Shown in pieces: positions 6,491 through 22,447 of a stretch of DNA of 22,906 nucleotides. Position 1 is the stretch's first letter. Each line of letters opens with the position of its first letter. Source of the stretch: a virus. The notes under the pieces are model-generated. The model had not been told where the DNA came from. It saw only the letters and a program-made list of their open reading frames with translations, and searched no databases. Location of the stretch: IMG/VR virus record IMGVR_UViG_3300025109_000073, positions 1 to 22,906 of that record; one strand, given 5' to 3'. Position numbers and translations under genes: made by a program.

Positions 6491-9400
6491 CTAATCCCAT
6501 ATATATGTGTGGTCCCCTAACTTCACTGTTTCAGTCTTACCCTTATGGTAAGGGGGGGTAGGTCCGCTGTAAAATGATGTTGCTCCCTCTGTGGGGTCTT
6601 CATGTACCTCTGTGTTTAGAGCATCCACTACATATTTTCTGTACTTGTGAAAATCTTTGTCCTTCAAATGCTTAAGATGGTAACCTTTGAAATCCCCACT
6701 GGTTATAACTGCCATTACCGGGTCTACGTGTTTACTCTTCTTAAACTTTAAATCACCTACTTGATGTTCCCTCACCCTATTTAAAGCTACCCAGATTGGC
6801 CCTTTGAAAGCATCTGTACCGTGGCCTCTTGTTATTTGGTTCCTACCCTCTCCAATAGCCATAGCGGTTAGATGGTCAATGGCCTCTTCAGATGCTCCAC
6901 CCAGAAGCTTGTTGTAGGTTGAGCGGTTATACTCTACGGGGTCTGCCTCTGCCTCTGGAATGAAGGGTGGGTCAGGTACTTCACTCATCTTTTTTTTTAC
7001 GGGGGCTGGCTTCTCTTCTTCCCCGCCAAATATGAAGTCAACGGCATCTTTAATGCTGGGCCAATTACCACTTACGCCCTTAAACCCATACGCCCAGTTG
7101 CCCAACGCTTGGAATACATTCTGGTGTTTTACCTCTCCACCATCCTTATAAGATCTACCATCGATAATGCCTTGAAGTTGTTTTTCCATTACGTCGTCAT
7201 CGATAAAGGGGACTATCTTTCTCCAGAAAATCTCCAGCAAGTTTTGGCGTTTTTCTAAAGGTACATCCCTAGGCTCCATAAATCCGGGAGGGACTGCCCC
7301 GGGGCCATACTCCATGATGCCAGGGCTAAAGTTGCCCCTGAATTTATTACCTCGCCTGAATTTATTACCTCGCCCAAGAGCTTCAGCTTCTTCCTGGTCA
7401 TCAAACGCACCTCTACTCAGGGCATCATAGAAGTTTTCTTCAAGCCTACCCCCCATCATTTTAATCTGTTCGGCAATTGGGAGTTTACTACGTTCTTTCC
7501 TAGCTTCCTCTCTAAATTTAAGATGGTCTTGCCAATTGGGGTTATAGCTTTTTTTGTGCATAGGGTCAGTGCTGCCACCAGTAGCAAACCCACCCTTTGA
7601 AAGGTCTGTTTGTGGTTTATTTTTTAGATTACCAGAATACCCACCCATATTCAGACCAGTACCCTTCCAGAACGTGGGGTGATCTCCACTTTTGTAATCA
7701 CTAGGCCAGTGTTGCTCCCCAGTCTCTAAATCAAGTCCTGGCTTAACCCCAGCCATGTAGGCTGCTCTATAGTCATACTGTTTGGTATTTAAGTCTGGTT
7801 CTTCCCCATATTTGTTTACATATTCATCCCACCACTTTGTTTTCTTTATAAAGCTTTGAAATTCTTCCTCTACAAAATTTTCTGGTTTTTTTACACCACC
7901 ATCTTGGTATTTATCTTTTGTATACCCACCCCCATAAAAACCAGCGGGCTGCCCCATCTCCTGCATCTGGTCTGGGGTTAAGGTTTCCTCTGGGATACTC
8001 TCACCAGTCCCCTCAAGCCCTTGCTCCCGTCTTTTCTGGGTGGCACCAGACTGGGCAAAACCCTTATCATTAATCTTATCAAAAGTCTCTACACCAAAAT
8101 AGTCTACAAATGGACCAGGGAAGACAAACTCTCCAGCCGACACGTTAATAACCTCAAGAGAGGGGTCTTGTGGGTCAGGTTGCCATCCAGTAGCTTGTGC
8201 CCCTTCCTCCAACATCTTTTGTAGTTTCTTGATACCCACTGTCTGAACAGCGTCGGTATTGACCACATATGAGTTTGCAGGAACCCTTGTCTGAATGCTG
8301 TCACTATCTTCAGTGCCTGGACCCCGTACCATTCCAACAATAATTGGGATGGACTGGGGTGGGGGTTGTTGTGGCTGTTCTACAAACCCTTCCCCACCCA
8401 TCATCTCTGGGGGCATACCAGCTTCTGGGGGGCCTTGGGGTGGCCCACCTTCCCCTGCCAACATACCCATCAACTCTGGGGGTAATCCCCCTCCCATTTC
8501 TGGCCCTGGTTCTGGGGGTGGGGCGAAACCGCCGTCTTGATATTCTGTACTTATAAGCCCCCCTTGTTGTAGTTGTCCGCCAGCGTCAGCTTCTGCATCA
8601 CTTCCAGCAGGACCAGCACTAGCAGTACCCTCTCCTCCAGCACCAGAAGTCCCTTCACCTGCCCCACCCACAGATGCATCAGGATTACCTGACCCAGCTC
8701 CCGCATCACTCAGCCCATACTCAGCCTCAATACCATATGAGCTACCTGCGGGGACACCAGAGGTAGCGGGATCATCCAGCCCATACTCAGCCCCAATACC
8801 TTTTGAGCTACCTGCGGGGACACCAGAGGTAACACCAGGTGGTGCTGCTCCGTAGGGATCAAAAACTACCCCCTTTAGTAACGCCTCCTGGAGCGCAAGG
8901 GCGCGATCCTCCTGTTCTTCGCCAGCCTTCCGACCTAGATAGGCAGCTTCTTCTAGCTCATCCATAGTCGGTAGTTGGATAAAATCCCACTTATACCCTG
9001 TACCCTTACGCTCTCTATCCTCCTCGGTAGCTTCGCGCGCTGCTTTTTCATGCTCACTCTCCAATTTTGCTTCTTCTTCTTCTGCTTTTTCTTTTTCTTC
9101 TGTCTGGGTTATGGCTCTCATTGCGGCGTTAATCTGCGCATTAGTAAGGGTTTTATCAGTAGCGTCGAAGATTGCCCTTATATTGTCTACAGGGCTGAAC
9201 CCTCCGGCCGAGCCATCATTTGAGCCAGCCCATCCACCTTCTTGGTAGTTTACTTTCCCGCCTTTTGCCCACGGGGAGAGTCCGGGACCGGTTTGGCTGG
9301 AGGTTGGATCAAAATCACCCGGACTGTCCCCAAACATACCTTCAGTACCTTCAACACTTTCGGCAGCAGCATTAGCAGCCATAGCATCCGCAGCATCCGC

Positions 9401-10243
9401 AATACCAGTTGGGCCAGCGGTTGTAGTGGTGGTAGGGGTAATTGATCCTGATCTCTGCGGAGGTGGCGGAGGTGTAGGAGAGTGTTCTTCCTTTGCTGCC
9501 GTTGGCGATCTCTTCGGCAAAGGCATCCTCGGCTCGATCAACGTCAGCTCGGGTTGTTGAACGGCTAATGCTCTAGCAGCACTTTTTTCTACTCCATCTT
9601 TCATATGAGCAGTCATAGTCTCTACTTGAGCCTCGGTTAAATCAACAACATCTTCATCATTAATACCCAACCCCCAGTTAGTCCCAGGTAAAGAATAACT
9701 ACCATATGTACCAATATTACCATACGCATCAGGGGAAATGTCTTCTCCAAATGCGATGGTTCTAGCATGTGCTGCCCCAATAGTTCCGGGGGCGAACCCC
9801 AAGCTAGCACCGCTCGTAGCAGCATCTCTGTCTTTAACTTGCTGTGCCCTTTGAAGTGATAGTTCATAGTAAGATTTCTCTTCTTTATTCATTTTACCAA
9901 GATTAAAATTACCAATGCCAAACTTACCCTCCATAGCAGCCTTAGCATTAGCTTCGACAGAAGCTTTTGGGTCCATACTAAATGTGCTTGAGATATTATC
10001 AATCAGCCCCGGAATACTTGTGGGTATATCAACAATCTTGCCGAAAGTAAAATCAGTAGTATCAAACCCAGCAGGATCACCAGCCCCTACATCCCCACCA
10101 AAAACCTCATCCAACCTATCCTTAACCTTGGCATCAATATCAGGATCAGATATGGGGTCATCAGGGTCCAAACTAATATTAGGGCCACTAGCCGCAAAGG
10201 GGTGTGGACGGAGAGTTGTAAAAGGTACGGGGTAGTTAGGCAT
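6491..10243 (-). CDS. Large virion (ejection-type) protein with C-terminal SleB/CwlJ-like cell-wall hydrolase domain
   Basis: A 1,250-aa mosaic. Residues 1-240 are mixed; 240-350 Pro/Thr/Gly-rich; 380-455 charged helical; 470-640 Gly/Pro low complexity. Residues 645-730 hold two similar segments (RVPANSYVVNTDAV..., VSAGEFVFPGPFVDYFG) like the 'GEYVVPADVV' element of many phage virion proteins. Residues 803-860 carry YDYRAAYMAGVKPG...HWPSDYK...HPTFW, another recurrent phage motif. Residues about 1118-1250 (MAIGEGRNQ, GPIWVALNRV, MAVITSGDFKGYH, DPTEGATSFY) match the Hydrolase_2 / SleB pattern, with E1132 as candidate catalytic Glu. A YQxGG-type motif recurs (residues 333, 568, 779, and YKDGG at 1032). 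The ATG overlaps the preceding stop by 8 bp. Likely role: injected or internal wall-degrading protein. Confidence 0.7.
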   Translation of the reverse strand: MPNYPVPFTTLRPHPFAASGPNISLDPDDPISDPDIDAKVKDRLDEVFGGDVGAGDPAGFDTTDFTFGKIVDIPTSIPGLIDNISSTFSMDPKASVEANAKAAMEGKFGIGNFNLGKMNKEEKSYYELSLQRAQQVKDRDAATSGASLGFAPGTIGAAHARTIAFGEDISPDAYGNIGTYGSYSLPGTNWGLGINDEDVVDLTEAQVETMTAHMKDGVEKSAARALAVQQPELTLIEPRMPLPKRSPTAAKEEHSPTPPPPPQRSGSITPTTTTTAGPTGIADAADAMAANAAAESVEGTEGMFGDSPGDFDPTSSQTGPGLSPWAKGGKVNYQEGGWAGSNDGSAGGFSPVDNIRAIFDATDKTLTNAQINAAMRAITQTEEKEKAEEEEAKLESEHEKAAREATEEDRERKGTGYKWDFIQLPTMDELEEAAYLGRKAGEEQEDRALALQEALLKGVVFDPYGAAPPGVTSGVPAGSSKGIGAEYGLDDPATSGVPAGSSYGIEAEYGLSDAGAGSGNPDASVGGAGEGTSGAGGEGTASAGPAGSDAEADAGGQLQQGGLISTEYQDGGFAPPPEPGPEMGGGLPPELMGMLAGEGGPPQGPPEAGMPPEMMGGEGFVEQPQQPPPQSIPIIVGMVRGPGTEDSDSIQTRVPANSYVVNTDAVQTVGIKKLQKMLEEGAQATGWQPDPQDPSLEVINVSAGEFVFPGPFVDYFGVETFDKINDKGFAQSGATQKRREQGLEGTGESIPEETLTPDQMQEMGQPAGFYGGGYTKDKYQDGGVKKPENFVEEEFQSFIKKTKWWDEYVNKYGEEPDLNTKQYDYRAAYMAGVKPGLDLETGEQHWPSDYKSGDHPTFWKGTGLNMGGYSGNLKNKPQTDLSKGGFATGGSTDPMHKKSYNPNWQDHLKFREEARKERSKLPIAEQIKMMGGRLEENFYDALSRGAFDDQEEAEALGRGNKFRRGNKFRGNFSPGIMEYGPGAVPPGFMEPRDVPLEKRQNLLEIFWRKIVPFIDDDVMEKQLQGIIDGRSYKDGGEVKHQNVFQALGNWAYGFKGVSGNWPSIKDAVDFIFGGEEEKPAPVKKKMSEVPDPPFIPEAEADPVEYNRSTYNKLLGGASEEAIDHLTAMAIGEGRNQITRGHGTDAFKGPIWVALNRVREHQVGDLKFKKSKHVDPVMAVITSGDFKGYHLKHLKDKDFHKYRKYVVDALNTEVHEDPTEGATSFYSGPTPPYHKGKTETVKLGDHTYIWD
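7337..7372 (-). repeat. Perfect 18-bp tandem duplication
   Basis: Positions 7337-7354 and 7355-7372 are identical. The protein reads GRGNKFRRGNKFRGNF (residues about 957-972 of the large virion protein). Being 18 bp, it keeps the frame. It looks like a recent slippage duplication. Confidence 0.9.
8707..8832 (-). repeat. 66-bp imperfect tandem repeat in the Gly/Pro-rich region
   Basis: Positions 8707-8766 and 8773-8832 are near-identical with a 66-bp period. They encode two 22-residue copies, TSGVPAGSSKGIGAEYGLDD and TSGVPAGSSYGIEAEYGLSD, at residues about 472-513 of the large virion protein. Confidence 0.85.
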
Positions 10244-10514
10244 CAGAAATCCAACCTTCTTGTTGTGCTACCTTCTCATCCCTGTCAGATAGCTCGAAAT
10301 TTTCAAGTGTAGTTCTAACTTGTTTGTCAAGCTGCTGGAGCGTTTCCAGTAAAGCCAGCTTCCCCAGCGCCCGGAACGCTTCCAACTCCGATGGTGCCAC
10401 CACCGCGTCCTGAACTGTCTTCCGGGTTAGCTCCTGGAGGTACTCCTCCAGCGCCACCAGGGCCTGGGGGTTGTTGACCAGGATTAGCAGCTTGCGGGCT
10501 TGTTCCTTGTTCAT
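10236..10514 (-). CDS. Small helical protein overlapping the portal 3' end
   Basis: A 92-aa protein predicted mostly alpha-helical (MNKEQARKLLILVNNPQALV, LEEYLQELTRKTVQDAVVAP, LGKLALLETLQQLDKQVRTT), soluble and with no membrane segment. The first 188 bp overlap the portal gene in a different frame, and the last 8 bp overlap the next gene. AAGGGG lies 13 nt upstream of the ATG, somewhat far. The amphipathic, ordered sequence looks more like a selected protein than the Gly/Pro-rich portal tail it overlaps. The function is unknown. Small proteins between portal and ejection proteins often act in assembly, but that is only context. Confidence 0.7.
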   Translation of the reverse strand: MNKEQARKLLILVNNPQALVALEEYLQELTRKTVQDAVVAPSELEAFRALGKLALLETLQQLDKQVRTTLENFELSDRDEKVAQQEGWISDA

Positions 10515-12447
10515 TTTGTACTTGCATCCCCTTTAATATCTCAGCAAATATTGCTGCGTCATCCATGTTGTTTACCATGCTCTCTGGCTCAATATCCATT
10601 GTAACTGCCAGTTCCCTCAACAAGTTTGGCATTTTGAAGAAGGGGGCAAGCATGGGATTACTGGCAACTTGTAGGAGGGTTGTCAAGCGTTGTGATCTAA
10701 CCTCTTTCTGCATCAGGGCAGCGGTACCACTTGCCTTGATTTCTAGATCACCTACAATCTCGGGGGTGTCCTCATTGAACTGCATGTTCCACTGGTAGAA
10801 TGCTTCCCCCAAGGGTTTTAACAAATATTCATCCAGGTTTTTGACCACTGTTTTAATGTTGACAGAACCGGCATTCATCAACATACTCAAACCTGATGCT
10901 GTTCGACCTGTTCCCGTGACCCCTGTCTGCCCGTGCATCACTGAGGGGATACCAGTCTCCTCGTCAGCTAGCTGTCTAGCCTTGTCATACATTTGTAGGT
11001 TTTCAGGTGCTGTATTGGGGAATTTAATACCGTGGATAGCTTGCCCCGGTTGCCCAGACTGCCGTCTAAACACTTTCCCGGGCCACACCTCATAACTTTG
11101 ACCGGCTACAAGCATTGTCTCATCCACATCAAAGACGAGGTTGCCAGCCAGTGCTAGGTTATCAACAGCCATTCTAACATGCCCGTTCATCAGGAGTTGG
11201 GCATCTTCCATGTTTTCAGCCACCCCAACACCGAAGAACTGGTAGGGGTTCTCTTCATAGGGGACTACATGATAGGGGATACGCGCAGGAGTGAAAGGAT
11301 TAATAACAGCACGAAGTATCTCATGACCACAAATCCACGCATTGATTTGTACCTCATCATCGTACTCTTCAATCTCATCCAGGTCGATCCCAGCTTTAGT
11401 GGCCGTATCTTTATCAACCAAACCCCAATATTCATGCACATCAAACCTGTCAAAGTCTTGCTCTTGGGTGTTGTCTTCTAGGTTGTAGAGACTATCCTCA
11501 TAATCCCGCTTCTCATAGTTGGGACCCTTTTCCAAGCATCTTGTGATGGCATCCCCCCGGAAATATGGGAGGTTTTTGAGGTTCCTCAACTCTCCCCTGT
11601 TCATCCGGTGACGCTGGATCACCCACTCAGCCTCATGTATATTGCGGGCTGCTGGGTCAGGGTAGAAATCCCAACAAGATACTGAACTAATCTCCGGGAC
11701 CAGTTTTTCCTCTGGCTCGTATAGTCTGCCACCCTCCCCCTTGGTCCACTTGTGTACGGTTTTAAACGTGTTAAATGGACCCTTTATAATACCGGACCCC
11801 AACAAGCACATTTCAAAGGATGCTTGCCTAATGGCCATACAAGACTTATTGTATAGTAGCTGATCCCTGATAATACGCTGCATGTGTTCGGCAGACAACT
11901 TAGAGGGGCTGATTTGTGGCTCACCACCCCTTGCAGGACCCTCTTTTAGGTTTGCACCCGCATATTGTTCTTCCAGGCCACCCAAGAAATGGGGTTTTGT
12001 AGCCTCAAGGGCACCTGGGGGGAGACTGCGACCATCTCCCTCAAACCCTGCCGGGTCGAGTGGTGGCTGTTCTTGTGGTTCCTTTGAGAGGTGGGCATAC
12101 TTGGCAATCCCATAGGGGTCATCAGTAGCTGCTACCTCAAGGGGGATGCGGTTATTTGCAAAGAGTATTTCCAGAATTTGACCATAAGCGGCCAGAACCT
12201 TAACCTTTGTGATCTTAATAAATACCTTAGACCGTTCCTTTTCACGGAACTGTGTAGTAGTATCATAAATACCACGGTAGTTCTTATAAGCGAGTAGCCA
12301 GCGGACTTCTTCAGTCTCTTTCCCATCCTCTGCCTCATTACGACGTTCATAGATCATTCCAATCAATCCGTGACCGGAAGTTTCATCTATATTCTCAGCG
12401 TCATACCCGCCCTCTTCGCCACTTTCAAGAATATCTGGATTTACCAC
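10327..12447 (-). CDS. Portal protein
   Basis: A 706-aa protein, the size class of P22-like podoviral portals. Recognisable segments: FREKERSKVFIKITKVKV (67-84); SCWDFYPDPAARNIHEAEWV (257-276); INPFTPARIPYHVVPYEENP (382-401) followed by FGVGVAENMEDAQ; and GVTGTGRTASGLSMLMNAGS (509-528), typical of phage portals. The C-terminal 62 residues are Pro/Gly/Ala-rich low complexity and encoded in the overlap with the next gene. The reading frame begins with GTG (12445-12447), because an in-frame TAA stop lies only three codons upstream; the ribosome binding site is weak (GGGTAA). The portal forms the dodecameric ring at the packaging vertex and binds TerL and the adaptor. Confidence 0.88.
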   Translation of the reverse strand: MVNPDILESGEEGGYDAENIDETSGHGLIGMIYERRNEAEDGKETEEVRWLLAYKNYRGIYDTTTQFREKERSKVFIKITKVKVLAAYGQILEILFANNRIPLEVAATDDPYGIAKYAHLSKEPQEQPPLDPAGFEGDGRSLPPGALEATKPHFLGGLEEQYAGANLKEGPARGGEPQISPSKLSAEHMQRIIRDQLLYNKSCMAIRQASFEMCLLGSGIIKGPFNTFKTVHKWTKGEGGRLYEPEEKLVPEISSVSCWDFYPDPAARNIHEAEWVIQRHRMNRGELRNLKNLPYFRGDAITRCLEKGPNYEKRDYEDSLYNLEDNTQEQDFDRFDVHEYWGLVDKDTATKAGIDLDEIEEYDDEVQINAWICGHEILRAVINPFTPARIPYHVVPYEENPYQFFGVGVAENMEDAQLLMNGHVRMAVDNLALAGNLVFDVDETMLVAGQSYEVWPGKVFRRQSGQPGQAIHGIKFPNTAPENLQMYDKARQLADEETGIPSVMHGQTGVTGTGRTASGLSMLMNAGSVNIKTVVKNLDEYLLKPLGEAFYQWNMQFNEDTPEIVGDLEIKASGTAALMQKEVRSQRLTTLLQVASNPMLAPFFKMPNLLRELAVTMDIEPESMVNNMDDAAIFAEILKGMQVQNEQGTSPQAANPGQQPPGPGGAGGVPPGANPEDSSGRGGGTIGVGSVPGAGEAGFTGNAPAA

Positions 12448-12453
12448 GTTTTA

Positions 12454-12696
12454 TTACCCGTGTTTTACCGTCAATGAAAAGTCAGATGCACCGGCACTCT
12501 CTAGACCCTTGATACCAAGACCACCACCGGAAGAGTTGTGGCTAGCTTCCATCAGTCCATTCTGATTATCAGCGGTCTTTGTAATTTTGCTGTCGTTGGA
12601 ATAACGGTGAAGGCTGTGCTTCTCTGGCTTTGCAAGCTCACCTTGTTTGTGGCGCTTCAATACATAACTAGCACCATAGGGTTTCTTACCGTCCAT
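12454..12696 (-). CDS. Small hypothetical protein upstream of portal
   Basis: An 80-aa, hydrophilic protein (MDGKKPYGASYVLKRHKQGE..., Gly/Ser-rich middle SSGGGLGIKGLE). It has a strong ribosome binding site (AAAGGAGA, then GAGAAC, ATG), so it is very likely translated. It lies 6 bp before the portal start and 23 bp after the recombinase fusion gene. There are no recognisable domains. Its position just before portal makes a small virion or assembly role possible. Confidence 0.65.
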   Translation of the reverse strand: MDGKKPYGASYVLKRHKQGELAKPEKHSLHRYSNDSKITKTADNQNGLMEASHNSSGGGLGIKGLESAGASDFSLTVKHG

Positions 12697-12719: not shown

Positions 12720-15700
12720 TTAAGGACCTGTGGCGTATTTGCCGTAGTCTATAAACCCACCGGGGTGTGTCCTGGGGGCATTATATTCCTCAGATGGTGT
12801 ACCTTTAGCGAAGGCTTCATCCATTGGGTGTTCTGGTTCTACATCAAGTGGTTTTGGTTGTAGTCTAGTAATTTTAGCCCTTTGACGGTCTTGCCTAAGT
12901 TTACCCCGCACCCTCCAGTCACTTAAATCTATTTTGGTTTCGAAAGCTGGGCTGTAATCAGAGGCAGCCTCAAAAGGAAAATTACCAACTTCCATGATAT
13001 CTGAAGGCGGGTGTAAAGTTGTGGGTTCTAATGATGGTTCAACATCTTCAACGGGGTCTTGAAACCACATATCCTCACTTTCAACCCCATGAATTTGTTT
13101 GGGTGCCCCCACCATTTCTTGTATGTGTAGACCACCACTTTCAGGAGTTTCCCCAACACCAACTGGTTCTCTACTATCTGCATACCCAGGATCACCCTCA
13201 TCTGGGAACCCAGCATATATACTGTCTATATCTGTATCTATATTATATTCATCTTCAAACAAAGCTAGTGCTGCTTTTCTTCTAGCATCTTTTAAAGAAG
13301 AAGCCCGTTCATCATCAGCCACCTTAAAGGCTTGTTCTTCTTCACGCTCTAGTTTAGTTTTTAAAATTTGGTCAGGATATTTTACATTAAAATCTTCTGG
13401 TCTTTCAATAACCTCTTTAAAAACTTTTATGTTATCTCTAGCCTCAGATACAAGATTCATTAATTCGTTATTGTTTTTATGCATTTCAGCATTAAAACTA
13501 CCAAGTATCATTTGTAAAGCAACAGATTTACTATCCACATCTTCAAATACTTGTTGGGTTAATAACCCACCTAAAAGATTTTTAGTTCTCCAAGCTACTC
13601 TTTCTGAGTTGTTATCTAAACTATTAACATTTAATGTGAACCAAGCTGAGGCTATGTCTGCTACAACAGGATTAACTAGAGGTACAGCAATTTCACCCCC
13701 TTCTATACCTTCATAAGGTATCCCAACACTGCTAGGAGAAGTAAATGCTGTTCTAAATAGCTTATTTAAGTCTACATTTTTTGTAGCAAATTTTTGCCAC
13801 AACCATTTCATGTCATGATCATCAGTGCTTAAAAAGTGTCTAAGTTCCTCTTTAGTTACGTGCCCATCATTATGTGCGGCTATAGCTAACAGAGGGTTGT
13901 AAACAGACCTCATATACTTTGAAAAATGTGGGATAGCCATAGTCGCACCAGCAGCAGCTACGCCACTATTAACTATACCATTATAAGCTTCAGCCATAGC
14001 TGTTGACAACATACCAAGACGAGCAAGACTAAGTAAAGCACCCCTAACAAATTTTAAACTATCATAAACTTTATCTTGATACATTTTAGTTCTAGCTTGG
14101 GCTTTTTTGAAAGCCTCCTCAGCCTCACTTAAAGCTTCCCAACTAAACCCCTTCATATATTTGAATATACTTTTCCCCATCCAGTGTCGGGGTGTAGATG
14201 TGCGTTGTTCTGGGGGGGTGTATTTGGTTATATTAGATGGTGAAGTACCACCAGTACCACCAGTACCACCAGTACCACCAGTACCACCAGTACCACCAGT
14301 ACCACCAGTACCACCAGATTTTGGAGAAAAGGCTCGTCTAAATTGCTCTTTAACGCTTCTTCTAACCTCCTTTTCTTTCTCTAAAGGTGCTGGGACTTTT
14401 TCTCTATCTCTAGGCCCTTCAAAAGGTACTCCTGGTTTATTCCCAAGCCGTAACTTTTCTGCATGACGCTTAACAGCCTCCTCAGCAGCTTTTTCAATCC
14501 ACTCACGGGGTATACCTATATTAGACCTATACCCAGACATCATTTTTTCTAATACTTTTTTAGCTGTCTCTACACTTGCTAAACCAGCAAAGACTTCAAG
14601 AATTTCTAAAAATCCAAGTTCGTTTTCATCTTCCTGGCTTAAATCTTCACCAGTTTCTTGTAAGTGCCACTGATTAATTTGGTCTGCTGCAAAACTAGCA
14701 GCATCAGATACTGTAGAAGCAATATTCACGGCATCCTCGGCTGCTTCTTTAAACACACCAACAGTATCATTATAAAAATTATCTAACCAATCGTATTCTT
14801 CATCTTGCAGGGCTTCTACTACTTCTTTTTGTACAACACCTTCTTTTGCCCCGGGTACCACCCTAGCAGCCCAAAGGGCATTACTACCAGAAGTGTTTTC
14901 CCCCTTTTTCAAAGCATTAGCATAAATTTTAAACATTTCTTCCCTGGACTTTTCAGAGTGCCCAGTATAAAGAGAAATTTGTCTTGGGTCTAACCCAGCC
15001 CTAGCTAATTGAACATACCTAAAATTTCTTAATGATCTAAATGTAAAATGACCACTATCTAAAAGTGTATCTTCAGTAGGGTTACTGGGGTCCTTGTATT
15101 TATCCCAATTTTTTGTTTTTTTAACAAAATTTTGGATTTGTTTCATCACTGTAGCTAGTTTTACAGGTTTTGTCCCTTTTGCATTCATCCAAAGATTATT
15201 ATTGTTACTAACCTTTTTACCAATAGCGCGGTAAGCTTCTTTTAGTCTTACAAGTTGCTCTGTGATTTGTTCTGGGGTATACCCTACATTAACACCGGCA
15301 GGATCAACCAGTGTTAATTCCATAGGTATATCTTCATCAGCATCCTTTTTAGCTGCCCTTGTTTGAACAGAGGGTTGGAAAACATTATCGGGGAAAATAT
15401 CTCCCCAAGTAATAGTTAAAGCATTTGCACCCTCTAATTCACTAGTCCTCCCAGCAGTATTAGCCCCAAGCATAACTGCCAAAGCATTTCTTGTACTTTC
15501 TACAGTTCCCTCAGCATTTAATAAATCTATTAATTCTTGTACACCTTGTTCATTTGGTACGTCTTGCGCCTCAGCAGGCTTTTTAGAAACACGTTTTGGG
15601 AATTTCATTTCAGACGCCCAGGGGTTATCCACCCTCAAATGCTTGGGTGGGAACCGAGAAATTATGTCATAAAACCCCTTACCCTCAGCTATTAAATGAT

Positions 15701-16076
15701 CGTGTTTTGCTCTAAAACCAGCTACCTCTCTTTCATCACCAGCTATAGTTAATGAATGAACATCGTCCATATATTCATGAAGATGGTCACCTTCAATTAT
15801 TTCAAGTATTTCTTTAGATATAGCCCCTTCTACAGCCCCATCAACCCACTCGTATTTTAATTCACCACTTTCGTCAACTCTACGATCTTGTATTTGCCTG
15901 TCAATCCACTCAAGGTGTTGTTTAGTTGGGCCTATGTACACTGTATTTTTTTGAGAATGCTTTACATCTATACTAGCAATCCTTTTATGGTATGCTTTCA
16001 TAATCTTTAAAGCATCTGGAGTAAATTTAAGCCCAGACGTAAATTCTTCAAATGACATAGGAATTTCTGAAGCCAT
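12720..16076 (-). CDS. Tyrosine recombinase-like domain fused to a long uncharacterised virion-type protein
   Basis: About 1,118 aa. Residue numbers here count the upstream TTG (16077-16079) as 1; I prefer the ATG at 16074-16076, 3 nt after the terL stop. Residues 30-150 resemble a core-binding domain, followed by a linker (LRVDNPWASEMKFPKRVSKK). Residues 172-395 resemble the catalytic domain: NTAGRTSELEG gives Arg I (R211), K244/K245 lies in a possible beta-hairpin, TFRSLRNFR gives the HxxR region (His replaced by R348, R351 kept), YTGHSEKS gives H374, FKIY gives Y386. After a helical stretch come eight GGT triplets (589-612) and about 500 residues with no recognised family, ending acidic and Pro-rich. 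The gene is AT-richer than portal or terL (for example 17/60 GC at 13441-13500). It could be an integrase, a DNA-end or dimer-resolving enzyme, or a virion-delivered protein. Confidence 0.7.
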   Translation of the reverse strand: MASEIPMSFEEFTSGLKFTPDALKIMKAYHKRIASIDVKHSQKNTVYIGPTKQHLEWIDRQIQDRRVDESGELKYEWVDGAVEGAISKEILEIIEGDHLHEYMDDVHSLTIAGDEREVAGFRAKHDHLIAEGKGFYDIISRFPPKHLRVDNPWASEMKFPKRVSKKPAEAQDVPNEQGVQELIDLLNAEGTVESTRNALAVMLGANTAGRTSELEGANALTITWGDIFPDNVFQPSVQTRAAKKDADEDIPMELTLVDPAGVNVGYTPEQITEQLVRLKEAYRAIGKKVSNNNNLWMNAKGTKPVKLATVMKQIQNFVKKTKNWDKYKDPSNPTEDTLLDSGHFTFRSLRNFRYVQLARAGLDPRQISLYTGHSEKSREEMFKIYANALKKGENTSGSNALWAARVVPGAKEGVVQKEVVEALQDEEYDWLDNFYNDTVGVFKEAAEDAVNIASTVSDAASFAADQINQWHLQETGEDLSQEDENELGFLEILEVFAGLASVETAKKVLEKMMSGYRSNIGIPREWIEKAAEEAVKRHAEKLRLGNKPGVPFEGPRDREKVPAPLEKEKEVRRSVKEQFRRAFSPKSGGTGGTGGTGGTGGTGGTGGTGGTSPSNITKYTPPEQRTSTPRHWMGKSIFKYMKGFSWEALSEAEEAFKKAQARTKMYQDKVYDSLKFVRGALLSLARLGMLSTAMAEAYNGIVNSGVAAAGATMAIPHFSKYMRSVYNPLLAIAAHNDGHVTKEELRHFLSTDDHDMKWLWQKFATKNVDLNKLFRTAFTSPSSVGIPYEGIEGGEIAVPLVNPVVADIASAWFTLNVNSLDNNSERVAWRTKNLLGGLLTQQVFEDVDSKSVALQMILGSFNAEMHKNNNELMNLVSEARDNIKVFKEVIERPEDFNVKYPDQILKTKLEREEEQAFKVADDERASSLKDARRKAALALFEDEYNIDTDIDSIYAGFPDEGDPGYADSREPVGVGETPESGGLHIQEMVGAPKQIHGVESEDMWFQDPVEDVEPSLEPTTLHPPSDIMEVGNFPFEAASDYSPAFETKIDLSDWRVRGKLRQDRQRAKITRLQPKPLDVEPEHPMDEAFAKGTPSEEYNAPRTHPGGFIDYGKYATGP
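14244..14315 (-). repeat. 9-bp minisatellite, eight units, encoding a Gly-Gly-Thr linker
   Basis: Eight tandem 9-bp units (GGTGGTACT on the coding strand), nearly perfect, encoding (GGT)x8 at residues 589-612 of the recombinase fusion protein. Slippage would change linker length without a frameshift. It separates the recombinase-containing half from the uncharacterised C-terminal half. Confidence 0.95.
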
Positions 16077-16079
16077 CAA

Positions 16080-18743
16080 CTAATACCCAAAAGTAGCATC
16101 CATCATAGGCGGTGGTTGCCTAGATTTGGATACTCTGAAATCTTGGATCATATCTCTAGCCGCACGGGGGCGAGACATGGACATGTATCTAAAAGCATCG
16201 TAAGCGTGGTCCTCTGACTTGGTGTCTACATCCTCGGGGTTATTCTTACAAAGCGGGATGGTGGGCATGGTCCTAATGGTGTTGAGGCAGTTGCTGAAAA
16301 ATACAACACCACTACCCTCCTCGGGTGTGGCTTGTAGTCGGCGGTGGACTTCTAATTTACCTGCCATCCTGTTCTTGTCAGCCCTTCTCCACTTAATACC
16401 ACGGTTAACCATTATCTCAGCGATTGATGGCCCTGTTTGACCTCTCATATCCCAACATGAACCGTCCAGAACGTGGTCTTGTATGTAGGGATCACTAGCT
16501 TCAACCTCTATGATTAAATCAGCCAGCTTTTCGGCATTCCACCCCTTACCATACAATTCCCTGTACACCCATATATTGCCATCAAAGTCTACAGCACCCC
16601 AAAGTACACAGGAAGGAGAAGCATAGCCATAATCACAAGCCCTAATTCTTGTCCACGAACTCGGAATTTCAAAGGGATCACAAACATGCTTTCCTCTATC
16701 AAATTCTGTAAATGCGGCTCCTTCTGCAACATCCCAGTCTCCTTCCAATAAACGCCGCCGCTCAACCTCTGGAAGGGACATCAACATTGCTTCATAGTCA
16801 CCTGTTTCCATCAAACTTGGGTTGTCTGTCAAGCGAGCGGGGATGAACTTGCGATAAAAAAGTGGTTGCCCAGCCTTGGGGTGTGTTGAGGGGTATTTTA
16901 GAGTTGCCCCACTTTCAATATCAAGGGCTGGGAAAGCTGTGTTGGGTGGGCAAGGGTCAATATACATCTTTTTAACCCACCAGCCACCTATCCCTCCCGG
17001 GTTTGCTGTATTTCCAGATACCCACACATAGTTTTTTTGCCTCAATACAAAGTTTTCTGTGTCTTTTACTGTGATACAAAACACTTTACCACTATAATGT
17101 TCAGGGGTGACATCGTTTCTAGTATTAAGGTCTACTTTAGTAGTTGGACTATCCTTAACAAAATATATACAATACTTGTCATTGTGGTTGGGATTATCTA
17201 ACACATATTTTTTATACTGTGTTTTGTACCCAAGTTTGACAGCAATTTCTTGTAGGTCGTTTACTAGTTGAGGGCTTGTGGTGTAAGCTGTGCAGGCTGT
17301 GTCAGATTGCCAGTTTCCATCCCCAAGTATATAAGCTCTGAAAGCTAGGTCTAGCTGTCTGTAGGTAGCAGATTTCAAAAACTCACGAGGAAAATGCTTA
17401 TCTTTAGATTTACCAAACTGTTTTACATACTCCCATAATTCTTTGTTGGCTATCTGGAAGTCTCCATTTTTGGAGTAACAAAAATTATAGCAGCCAAGAA
17501 GTTTTTGTATAAACGGGTGGTTTTCCTTTTTTAGTTGGGAGATTATAACTTTGTAATTACCACCAGTAGATTTCCCAAAAGACCCCTCAGCAATATACAA
17601 ACCTAAAAACTGAGCGGCAGCGTCATCATTAAATTTACCAAAACCCCCAAACCCACCAGCGTAATATTTTTCAGAGGTTCTAACTACATTAATACTACCA
17701 CCTACATATTCATTCCACTTGACCAAATCGTTTGTAGGTTTTCCATGTTTTTTATATAAAACCCTGTGGTCATTGGTCATACTCATATACAAATTCTTTT
17801 TATATATACGAGTAATTTCTTCATCTACATCAAAGCTTGACACTGAGGTTACTGGTTTTATTACTAACTTGCCATCTTTCTCAACTGAATATACTAAATC
17901 CCCAACGTTTACATCCTGGATATTTTTCCACCCATCAACTGTCAGGGCTTCCCCTTCATCGACGCAACACCGCATGTATGGAATAATGCTAGGGTCAGTA
18001 GTGCGGAGCCTAGAACGAAGGTAATCCCATACATATGGGGTAGGGTAATGAGTGATTTCATCTATTGCTATGTAGGTATATGACTGGCCCTGGTAGCGGG
18101 TAACATCCCGGTCACGGTCACAGTAGGAAAAGTGGACAGAGGCACCGGAGGGAAAGAACCAAGTATTTTTGCCCTCCCTCCACTGTGCCTTTGGGAATGC
18201 GATTTTGTAGACCTGATGAGATTTCTCAATTAACTCACGGAGTTCATCAAGTGTGCGACGGAGTATGATAGCGCGGTGGTTGGGGTTGTCAGCATACCTG
18301 AGAACATCTAGGAGGACAGCAAAACTTTTACCCCCACCAGCGGCCCCCCCATAAAGGACATCCTCTTCCGGGGAAGCAAGGAAGTCGGTTTGTGGTCCTG
18401 GGTGGGGTTTAAATGTGGCATTCTGTTCTACATAATCCCTTGTAGCCTTGGGGAGGATTTCAATGTCATCCTTCACCAGTAGTGAGTTGCCCTCTTTAGA
18501 GATAGCCTTCTCAACCTTCTTGGCACCCTTCTCAATGTGCCGTATCTTGTCATACTCTTTCTTGGAAGCCCTGTCATGTTTGAGCTTCTGTTTGCGAGCA
18601 GTTACAAGCTTCCTCTGTGTCTCTCTCCTGGCTAGTTCAGCCTTGGAGAAATTATACTGACGCTTGGGTTGGGAAGGAGCATCCCGTTTTTTAGGTGGCT
18701 CCTTCCCATCCAAAAAAGCTTCAAGGTCAGAGGGGTCAGCCAA
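16080..18743 (-). CDS. terL: Terminase large subunit, intein-containing precursor
   Basis: An 887-aa precursor: extein 1-259, intein 260-578, extein 579-887. The spliced product would be 568 aa, normal for TerL. ATPase: Walker A YGGAAGGGKS (131-140), Walker B SYTYIAIDEI (221-230), and the coupling motif rebuilt by splicing as RC/TANPGG. Nuclease: acidic residues in ACDYGYA (D704), VLDGSCWD (D760) and DHAYDAFRY (845-853). The N-terminal 90 residues are basic (KKxxK-rich). The frame has no ATG at its start: a TTG (18741-18743) lies one codon after the upstream gene's TAA, in the same frame, with no clear ribosome binding site, so initiation may depend on coupling. TerL translocates DNA through the portal and cuts the concatemer. 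Confidence 0.92.
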   Translation of the reverse strand: MADPSDLEAFLDGKEPPKKRDAPSQPKRQYNFSKAELARRETQRKLVTARKQKLKHDRASKKEYDKIRHIEKGAKKVEKAISKEGNSLLVKDDIEILPKATRDYVEQNATFKPHPGPQTDFLASPEEDVLYGGAAGGGKSFAVLLDVLRYADNPNHRAIILRRTLDELRELIEKSHQVYKIAFPKAQWREGKNTWFFPSGASVHFSYCDRDRDVTRYQGQSYTYIAIDEITHYPTPYVWDYLRSRLRTTDPSIIPYMRCCVDEGEALTVDGWKNIQDVNVGDLVYSVEKDGKLVIKPVTSVSSFDVDEEITRIYKKNLYMSMTNDHRVLYKKHGKPTNDLVKWNEYVGGSINVVRTSEKYYAGGFGGFGKFNDDAAAQFLGLYIAEGSFGKSTGGNYKVIISQLKKENHPFIQKLLGCYNFCYSKNGDFQIANKELWEYVKQFGKSKDKHFPREFLKSATYRQLDLAFRAYILGDGNWQSDTACTAYTTSPQLVNDLQEIAVKLGYKTQYKKYVLDNPNHNDKYCIYFVKDSPTTKVDLNTRNDVTPEHYSGKVFCITVKDTENFVLRQKNYVWVSGNTANPGGIGGWWVKKMYIDPCPPNTAFPALDIESGATLKYPSTHPKAGQPLFYRKFIPARLTDNPSLMETGDYEAMLMSLPEVERRRLLEGDWDVAEGAAFTEFDRGKHVCDPFEIPSSWTRIRACDYGYASPSCVLWGAVDFDGNIWVYRELYGKGWNAEKLADLIIEVEASDPYIQDHVLDGSCWDMRGQTGPSIAEIMVNRGIKWRRADKNRMAGKLEVHRRLQATPEEGSGVVFFSNCLNTIRTMPTIPLCKNNPEDVDTKSEDHAYDAFRYMSMSRPRAARDMIQDFRVSKSRQPPPMMDATFGY
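17010..17966 (-). mobile_element. LAGLIDADG homing-endonuclease intein in terL
   Basis: A 319-residue in-frame insertion (precursor residues 260-578). Block A starts CVDEGEALTVDGW with C1, then VNVGDLVYSV. Block B is SMTNDHRVLY with the conserved T and H (T323, H326). Two LAGLIDADG helices are AQFLGLYIAEGSF (about 377-389) and DLAFRAYILGDGNW (465-478). Block F is SGKVFCITVKDTENFVLRQK. Block G ends VWVSGN followed by Thr+1, with Gly instead of the usual penultimate His. Its base composition is AT-richer than the extein (15/60 GC at 17161-17220 versus 30/60 at 16741-16800), consistent with separate acquisition. Both endonuclease motifs keep an acidic residue (E387, D475), so homing activity is plausible. 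Confidence 0.93.
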
Positions 18744-22175: not shown

Positions 22176-22207
22176 AGAGGGGTGGAGGGAGCCAAGCAAC
22201 ATTGCAT
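22176..22207 (-). repeat. Leader repeat copy 1 (upstream of terS)
   Basis: A 32-nt sequence matching 22416-22447 with one mismatch, exactly 240 bp apart. It ends 22 nt before the terS ATG at 22153. On the minus strand it begins ATGCAATGTTGCTTGG and contains the short palindrome GCAATGTTGC. In this copy the ATG directly follows the stop of the preceding small gene and is in frame with terS. Confidence 0.9.
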
Positions 22208-22415: not shown

Positions 22416-22447
22416 AGAGGGGTGGGGGGAGCCAAGCAACATTGCAT
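22416..22447 (-). repeat. Leader repeat copy 2 (upstream of the frameshifted small gene)
   Basis: It is the same 32-nt element as at 22176-22207 (mismatch G/A at 22426/22186). It ends 23 nt before the ATG at 22392, almost the same distance as copy 1 is from terS. The 9-mer AACATTGCA within it occurs a third time at 22691-22699, in the AT-rich region just upstream of the promoter. Confidence 0.9.

Follow-up and report, generated by a model that had tools for sequence, protein, structure and literature searches.

Tyrosine recombinases such as Cre, the Xer proteins and lambda Int (PF00589, PHROG 1) share a common catalytic-domain fold and an R-K-R-H-Y set of active-site residues. We examined a 22,906-nucleotide (nt) stretch of viral DNA (22.9 kb; the whole of virus record IMGVR_UViG_3300025109_000073, positions 1 to 22,906; hereafter 'the window') in which a minus-strand gene, placed between the genes for the large terminase (terL) and the portal, encodes a protein of 1118 amino acids (aa) with that predicted fold and residue set, followed by a long C-terminal part. 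We refer to this place between terL and portal as 'the slot', and to related contigs and loci by L numbers. The slot proteins of the window and its relatives differ from the described enzymes in being two to three times longer, in carrying a variable C-terminal fusion, in lying within the packaging/head operon, in the want of a common His at the HxxR box and in being hypervariable between near-identical phages. The related phages HMO-2011 and CRP-1 encode a stand-alone integrase of the same superfamily (292–373 aa), but it lies ahead of the replication module, towards the opposite end of the genome, and has no detectable sequence relationship to the slot proteins.

Several other described systems resemble the locus in part. 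Polyvalent proteins (Iyer et al. 2017, PMC5512222) are large modular proteins of portal–terminase phages, encoded beside virion genes and showing conflict-type diversity; they are packaged in the virion and injected, as the slot proteins may be, and the survey contains no occurrence of recombinases or integrases. The window protein has one enzymatic domain and an uncharacterised C-terminal part, and its position beside virion genes fits that pattern. The repressors YopR and SroF (of SPbeta and phi3T) share the fold, but in the slot proteins the catalytic residues are retained and a long C-terminal part follows. Phage phiCbK, without known lysogeny, also encodes a tyrosine recombinase (gp143; PMC3556154), but that protein is 208 aa long, is described with the replication genes and has no fusion. 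Near-identical marine phages that differ in small regions ('variable islands') have been described (Mizuno et al. 2013, PMC3861242), although no terL–portal recombinase slot figures in the passages of that account covered here. Within the open-access full-text literature, with subscription papers outside the scope, we found no account of such a slot.

The portal of the window is ∼50% identical to those of HMO-2011, the Pelagibacter phages HTVC033P and HTVC115P and the Roseobacter CRP phages, and the genes on the minus strand follow the order terL, slot, small open reading frame (ORF), portal, large ORF, capsid and tail genes. We therefore conclude that the window is a late region of an uncultured, HMO-2011-related podovirus, most probably a marine one. 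An earlier note, made from the letters of the window alone, had described a tyrosine recombinase fused in one frame to a long unrelated C-terminal part and placed between terL and portal in the packaging/head operon. Its description was borne out in each of these respects: the neighbouring genes are as stated, the claimed motifs and a (GGT)8 linker are all present, and a single 1118-aa ORF on the minus strand (the strand was not stated in the note) begins with the ATG at position 16076, or with a TTG just upstream at 16079, and stays open to the stop codon at 12720. Residues are numbered here from the ATG (R348 and Y386 of the note were counted from the TTG). The fusion gene is not an assembly join, the case that the note had named as fatal to its proposal, because a contig from another sample (L003) is identical to the window protein over residues 1–340 and a second contig (L002) carries the full-length gene, with the whole protein at 99% identity. 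The GGT tract itself is length-polymorphic, with eight units in the window and six in L002.

We modelled residues 1–430 of the window protein together with 31 relatives. Overall confidence in the model is low, with a mean predicted local distance difference test score (pLDDT) of 56, but values of 65–91 are reached in most blocks of residues 171–220 and 260–370. Structural alignment of residues 166–410 matched Cre (Z 12.9), XerA (Z 12.5), the integrase of Tn1549 (Z 11.7) and lambda Int (Z 10.6), and every row at a Z of at least 11 was a tyrosine recombinase, the fold that the earlier note had expected; the plain Foldseek E-values of the domain were modest (best 2.3e-3). In profile searches the window protein matched the PHROG integrase family phrog_1 (E=1.3e-5) and, over residues 179–388, PF00589 (E=0.0012), the latter with 19.1 bits against a cut-off of 27.1; PF00589 matched 15 of 56 relatives at E up to 0.05. 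Membership in the superfamily rests on the fold, on the catalytic residues and on the family profile, which when compared with the PDB recovered XerA, XerC-like, XerH and XerD as well as the integrases of Tn1549, SSV and lambda, at E-values as low as 2e-7.

The N-terminal region is better resolved in a compact relative of 593 aa (L125), whose full-length model has a pLDDT of 74.5; in it a helical N-terminal domain is followed by the catalytic domain, a pair of long helices (residues 369–410 and 416–469) and a further helical tail. Its first 320 residues match Xer and lambda integrases structurally, and residues 1–282 align with lambda Int including the core-binding domain (Z 11.8). This N-terminal part is well modelled and aligns with the core-binding regions of both lambda Int and XerH.

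An alignment of 56 diverse slot proteins has a mean column identity of only 11%, and its near-invariant columns are the start Met, an Arg, a Lys, a Phe or Trp, a Tyr and a Pro. The first catalytic Arg is present in 55 of the 56 proteins, the Lys in 54 and the Tyr in 51; the second Arg is aligned in 50 and lies one column off in the other six, so that it is found in all 56 when a shift of one column is allowed. The catalytic His is present in 43 and replaced by Arg in ten. At the first position of the HxxR box the window protein has R347, where S, A, T and K dominate in the family and His is not common. This position varies across the tyrosine recombinase superfamily, where His (or Lys) is usual but does not define membership. 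The change from His to Arg seen by the earlier note is present, but the possibly altered activity that the note drew from it does not follow: because His is not common there in the family while the other catalytic residues are kept, the Arg is, judged by the alignment, a family trait and no argument for inactivity. Most slot recombinases are probably catalytically active, given the conservation of their catalytic residues despite such divergence.

Linking the window protein to this family by pairwise BLAST or by single-sequence profile comparison proved too weak, and a tblastn search of 50,697 phage records, with this protein and with two relatives as queries, gave no match. Its link to the family rests on one true homologue (L098, below), on the motifs, on the fold and on position. 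Scans for related portal and TerL genes gathered ∼150 further loci, many of which have a large ORF in exactly this slot, followed by the conserved small ORF and then the portal. The gene is therefore no isolated oddity, as it belongs to a positionally conserved, hypervariable family. Among 139 loci with a placed TerL and a scorable slot, 69 encode a recombinase, 32 another protein (two of which, the partial L003 and the weakly scoring L104, are probably recombinases) and 38 no ORF of at least 200 aa. On the TerL tree the recombinase state requires at least six changes, compared with a mean of 45.8 after shuffling.

In the cultured relatives inspected the slot is empty or holds a few tiny ORFs, with no large tyrosine recombinase there, and in one environmental genome it holds a 220-aa ORF. 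Shorter non-recombinase proteins, with endings like YAMGGKVYxNSVRKPKFK- or YAMNRGGKVASVRKPxRA-, occupy the slots of L117, L122, L130, L137 and L141 and those of L037, L041, L043 and L044. In three Sinorhizobium and Rhizobium relatives (L177, L178 and L179) the pre-portal gene encodes an SGNH/GDSL hydrolase, a BNR-repeat protein or an 850-aa protein of unknown type; the first two are of types that would be compatible with a role in the virion or in host interaction.

The slot differs sharply in variability from the genes around it. When loci were paired at a TerL identity of 96% or more (98 pairs), the median identity is 98.4% for TerL, 94.4% for the portal and 93.5% for the small ORF, versus 28.1% for the slot protein (on a measure in which ∼20–24% is the level of pairs without BLAST similarity, and with the slot figure raised by a few near-copies among pairs that are not independent). 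Locus L096 matches the window at 99.7% identity along the 6.1 kb that end at position 16071, and at 98.2% from 12715 on; between these flanks it carries a different gene for an unrelated 1121-aa protein with recombinase motifs of its own. Locus L097 has the same break and the same start of the alternative allele, and L098 (TerL 87% identical) encodes the true homologue, whose recombinase part is 36% identical and whose final 66 residues are 62% identical. Slot recombinase genes have a median GC content of 38.2%, compared with 46.1% for terL and 44.9% for the portal gene, and fall below both flanking genes in all but one of 56 loci; in the window the values are 39% for the slot gene and 48–49% for the TerL exteins and the portal. 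These whole-gene swaps and the AT-richness support the separate acquisition that the earlier note had suggested.

The 5′ breaks of the alleles lie at the start codon, which is also the end of terL, and the shared sequence at the 3′ side ends 0–293 nt inside the gene. A precise site-specific insertion of the slot gene was considered and set aside, and homologous exchange in the flanks suffices, because the 5′ break coincides with the terL end and the 3′ breaks vary. The gene after the portal (6491–10243, minus strand) is itself another fast-changing late gene, since in several pairs of close relatives it shows no similarity at the nucleotide level; the slot is therefore not the sole variable late gene.

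Close pairs share parts of the slot protein separately. The recombinase part alone is common to L112 and L114 (residues 1–389, 94% identity), L123 and L135 (1–538) and L107 and L115 (1–537), and the C-terminal part alone to L123 and L125 (last 56 aa), L133 and L148 (last 148), L010 and L016 (last 250) and L167 and L171 (last 28). The two parts are, on these comparisons, shuffled independently. Certain endings recur: the motif Q[ML]xx[LI] is found in 23 of 88 distinct slot C-terminal tails, compared with 1.3 expected from shuffling, including tails on bodies without mutual BLAST similarity, and other tails share other endings, such as GFxDYGKYAxGP in the group of the window. In 50 of 60 slot recombinases the final 230 aa contain a hydrophobic stretch, whereas shuffling predicts 28 and control ORFs have one in 169 of 408 cases; the strongest such stretch of the window protein lies further in, near residue 790–800, and the L125 model shows long paired helices and a hydrophobic helix. 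A membrane motif of P-F-V-G type is not distinctive as a mark of the family (18 of 60, versus 85 of 408 control ORFs).

The sequences show where the gene lies and which fold it encodes, that the catalytic residues are conserved, that one allele replaces another and that the two parts are shuffled independently. The best fit to the constant place by the portal, to shuffled C-terminal parts with recurring endings and to a catalytic set preserved under extreme divergence is, in our view, a set of particle-associated late proteins that act on DNA in the next cell. We tentatively propose, as a reading that falls just short of an even call, that slot proteins are late-made, modular, virion-delivered site-specific recombinases whose recombinase part is under diversifying selection, the window gene being one allele of a slot that is hypervariable across a large group of uncultured HMO-2011-related marine podoviruses and whose alleles mostly encode a tyrosine recombinase that is probably catalytically competent. 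From these data we infer the following course. The protein would be made late together with the head genes, its C-terminal part would attach it to the particle or lodge it inside, and a new cell would receive it along with the DNA. The recombinase part would bind a specific DNA site and cleave it via Y385 with R210, K243/244, R350 and H373, so that incoming phage DNA may be recombined, by circularisation or integration. Diversifying selection would act on the recombinase part and hence on its DNA specificity, and alleles would spread between phages through recombination in the conserved flanks. The broader statement, that these phages, otherwise without a recognisable integrase, hold at a hypervariable terL–portal locus a family of virion-delivered recombinases with parts shuffled like those of polymorphic effectors, is one that we make somewhat more guardedly.

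A number of observations weigh against this proposal. The function of the slot is not essential, since some loci have nothing there and others encode a protein that is no recombinase. The profile search of the C-terminal half that the earlier note had suggested gave, once run, no family match. The Q[ML]xx[LI] motif is absent from some alleles, and the tail of the window protein is of another type; the gene after the portal, considered as a bearer of the same C-terminal tag, had it in one of ∼75 cases and was rejected. No candidate target site came to light, and a search of the window for tRNA-type attP sites gave none.

The main rival is an ordinary integrase that was moved into the late operon and enlarged there, its alleles corresponding to different attachment sites as in the module swaps of temperate phages, with no carriage in the virion. 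Such an origin would accommodate the conserved catalytic residues. Published work reports no lysogeny genes in subgroups IV–X of the HMO-2011-type phages (PMC9038755), into which the group described here may fall, so that slot genes could be overlooked ones. HMO-2011 and CRP-1 carry their integrase elsewhere, and the 52–57 kb records of the present group gave no PF00589 match outside the slot, although PF00589 misses many slot proteins too and the absence of a second integrase is therefore weakly supported. We nevertheless regard this explanation as unlikely, in view of the missing tRNA-type attP, the near lack of intergenic room by the gene, its late-operon position and the 300–700 aa of extra C-terminal sequence. 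Related portals were also found only twice in 84,980 bacterial and archaeal genomes (one Pelagibacteraceae and one Paracoccaceae contig), in a scan of two short patterns that can miss some.

Action late in infection on replicated DNA, beside the terminase, is a poorer candidate. The position next to terL, probable late co-expression and a Cre- and Xer-like fold would all suit the resolution of concatemers or dimers, or the processing of ends, before packaging, and a similar proposal has been made for the recombinase of the lytic phage phiCbK (PMC3556154). A housekeeping role of this kind needs a fixed site, however, and leaves the allelic diversity, the empty slots and the C-terminal parts unexplained; we consider it improbable. 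Slightly less probable again is a selfish element, spreading in the manner of homing endonucleases, with a recombinase that would transfer the gene encoding it to the terL–portal slots of co-infecting phages or from one such slot to another. Whole-gene replacement with ends at gene boundaries, empty slots in relatives and a GC content below that of both neighbours are what one might expect of it, but no conserved terminal sequence is seen, the variable 3′ ends of shared sequence are as homologous recombination in the flanks predicts, the recombinase state rarely changes on the TerL tree, and a long, independently varying C-terminal part is needless for mobility. Reuse of the fold as a non-catalytic DNA-binding regulator or structural protein, like the repressors of SPbeta-like phages, we think very improbable, since R, K, R and Y, needless for binding alone, are among the most conserved positions of a barely alignable family, even though YopR and SroF are among the structural matches to the window domain (SroF also to that of L125), the catalytic His is an Arg in some alleles and a few are without an aligned Tyr.

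Slot recombinases with gene-wide swapping suggest an unrecognised way for phages to diversify a recombination enzyme. Phages of the HMO-2011 type dominate in the sea as a group, and their life cycle needs rethinking if a late-operon recombinase has been overlooked in many relatives; if the enzyme travels in the particle, a recombinase is delivered as a protein together with the genome. Extreme allelic diversity around a conserved active site would amount to a natural library of site-specific recombinases, and the cause of that diversity (choice of host site, competition between phages or evasion of defence) becomes directly testable.

Table 1. Features of the slot gene and its surroundings (positions in the window; residues of the slot protein).
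Feature	Residues	Positions	Strand	Evidence or remark
Slot gene: 1118-aa tyrosine recombinase with long C-terminal part		12720..16076	-	ORF; near-identical copies L002 (complete) and L003 (partial)
N-terminal region, position of core-binding (SAM-like) domain	1-165	15582..16076	-	Low model confidence, pLDDT 37-50
Tyrosine-recombinase catalytic domain	166-410	14847..15581	-	Fold match; R210, K243/244, R350, H373, Y385
Catalytic R210 codon (AGRTSEL)	210	15447..15449	-	55/56 in relatives; invariant in a further family alignment
Catalytic R350 codon, HxxR box with His replaced by R347 (R347-S-L-R350)	350	15027..15029	-	
Catalytic H373 codon (GHS)	373	14958..14960	-	His in 43/56 relatives
Nucleophile Y385 codon	385	14922..14924	-	Tyr in 51/56 relatives
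(GGT)8 linker, 9-bp tandem repeat	588-611	14244..14315	-	6 units in L002
C-terminal part with hydrophobic stretches	612-1118	12723..14243	-	No family match
Tail of C-terminal part	1048-1118	12723..12935	-	62% identical in L098
Segment replaced by another recombinase gene in L096		12715..16071	-	Flank identity stops and restarts
terL (large terminase) with intein, flanking gene		16080..18743	-	Family matches
Conserved small ORF between slot and portal		12454..12696	-	Relatives; 93.5% median identity in close pairs
Portal, SU10/HMO-2011 type, flanking gene		10327..12447	-	Family matches and portal comparison

Scans of the window with Rfam and for tRNAs gave no matches, and none of the PADLOC defence models matched it. 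Among relatives, the small ORF between slot and portal has a common pattern such as MPxGNKQMYGxGYIMGQMSKQGEMSDANESALYRE. The terL gene contains a LAGLIDADG-type intein (17010–17957, minus strand, GC 36%) that is common to the window, L002, L003, L096 and apparently L098; other relatives are without it.

At the head of the late region, 32-bp direct repeats at 22176–22207 and 22416–22447 flank a small ORF upstream of a TerS-like gene. The segment between these repeats is missing from L097, is replaced in L096 by the last part of a long gene (over 1.2 kb) and is a hybrid in L003, making this a second variable site. A role of the repeats (near 22190 and 22430) as allele-specific recombination sites was considered and is not supported, as both alleles are accompanied by the same repeat. 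At the opposite end of the window, three 243-nt direct repeats, 66–84% alike, lie at 67–795 in a minus-strand tail-fibre-like gene.

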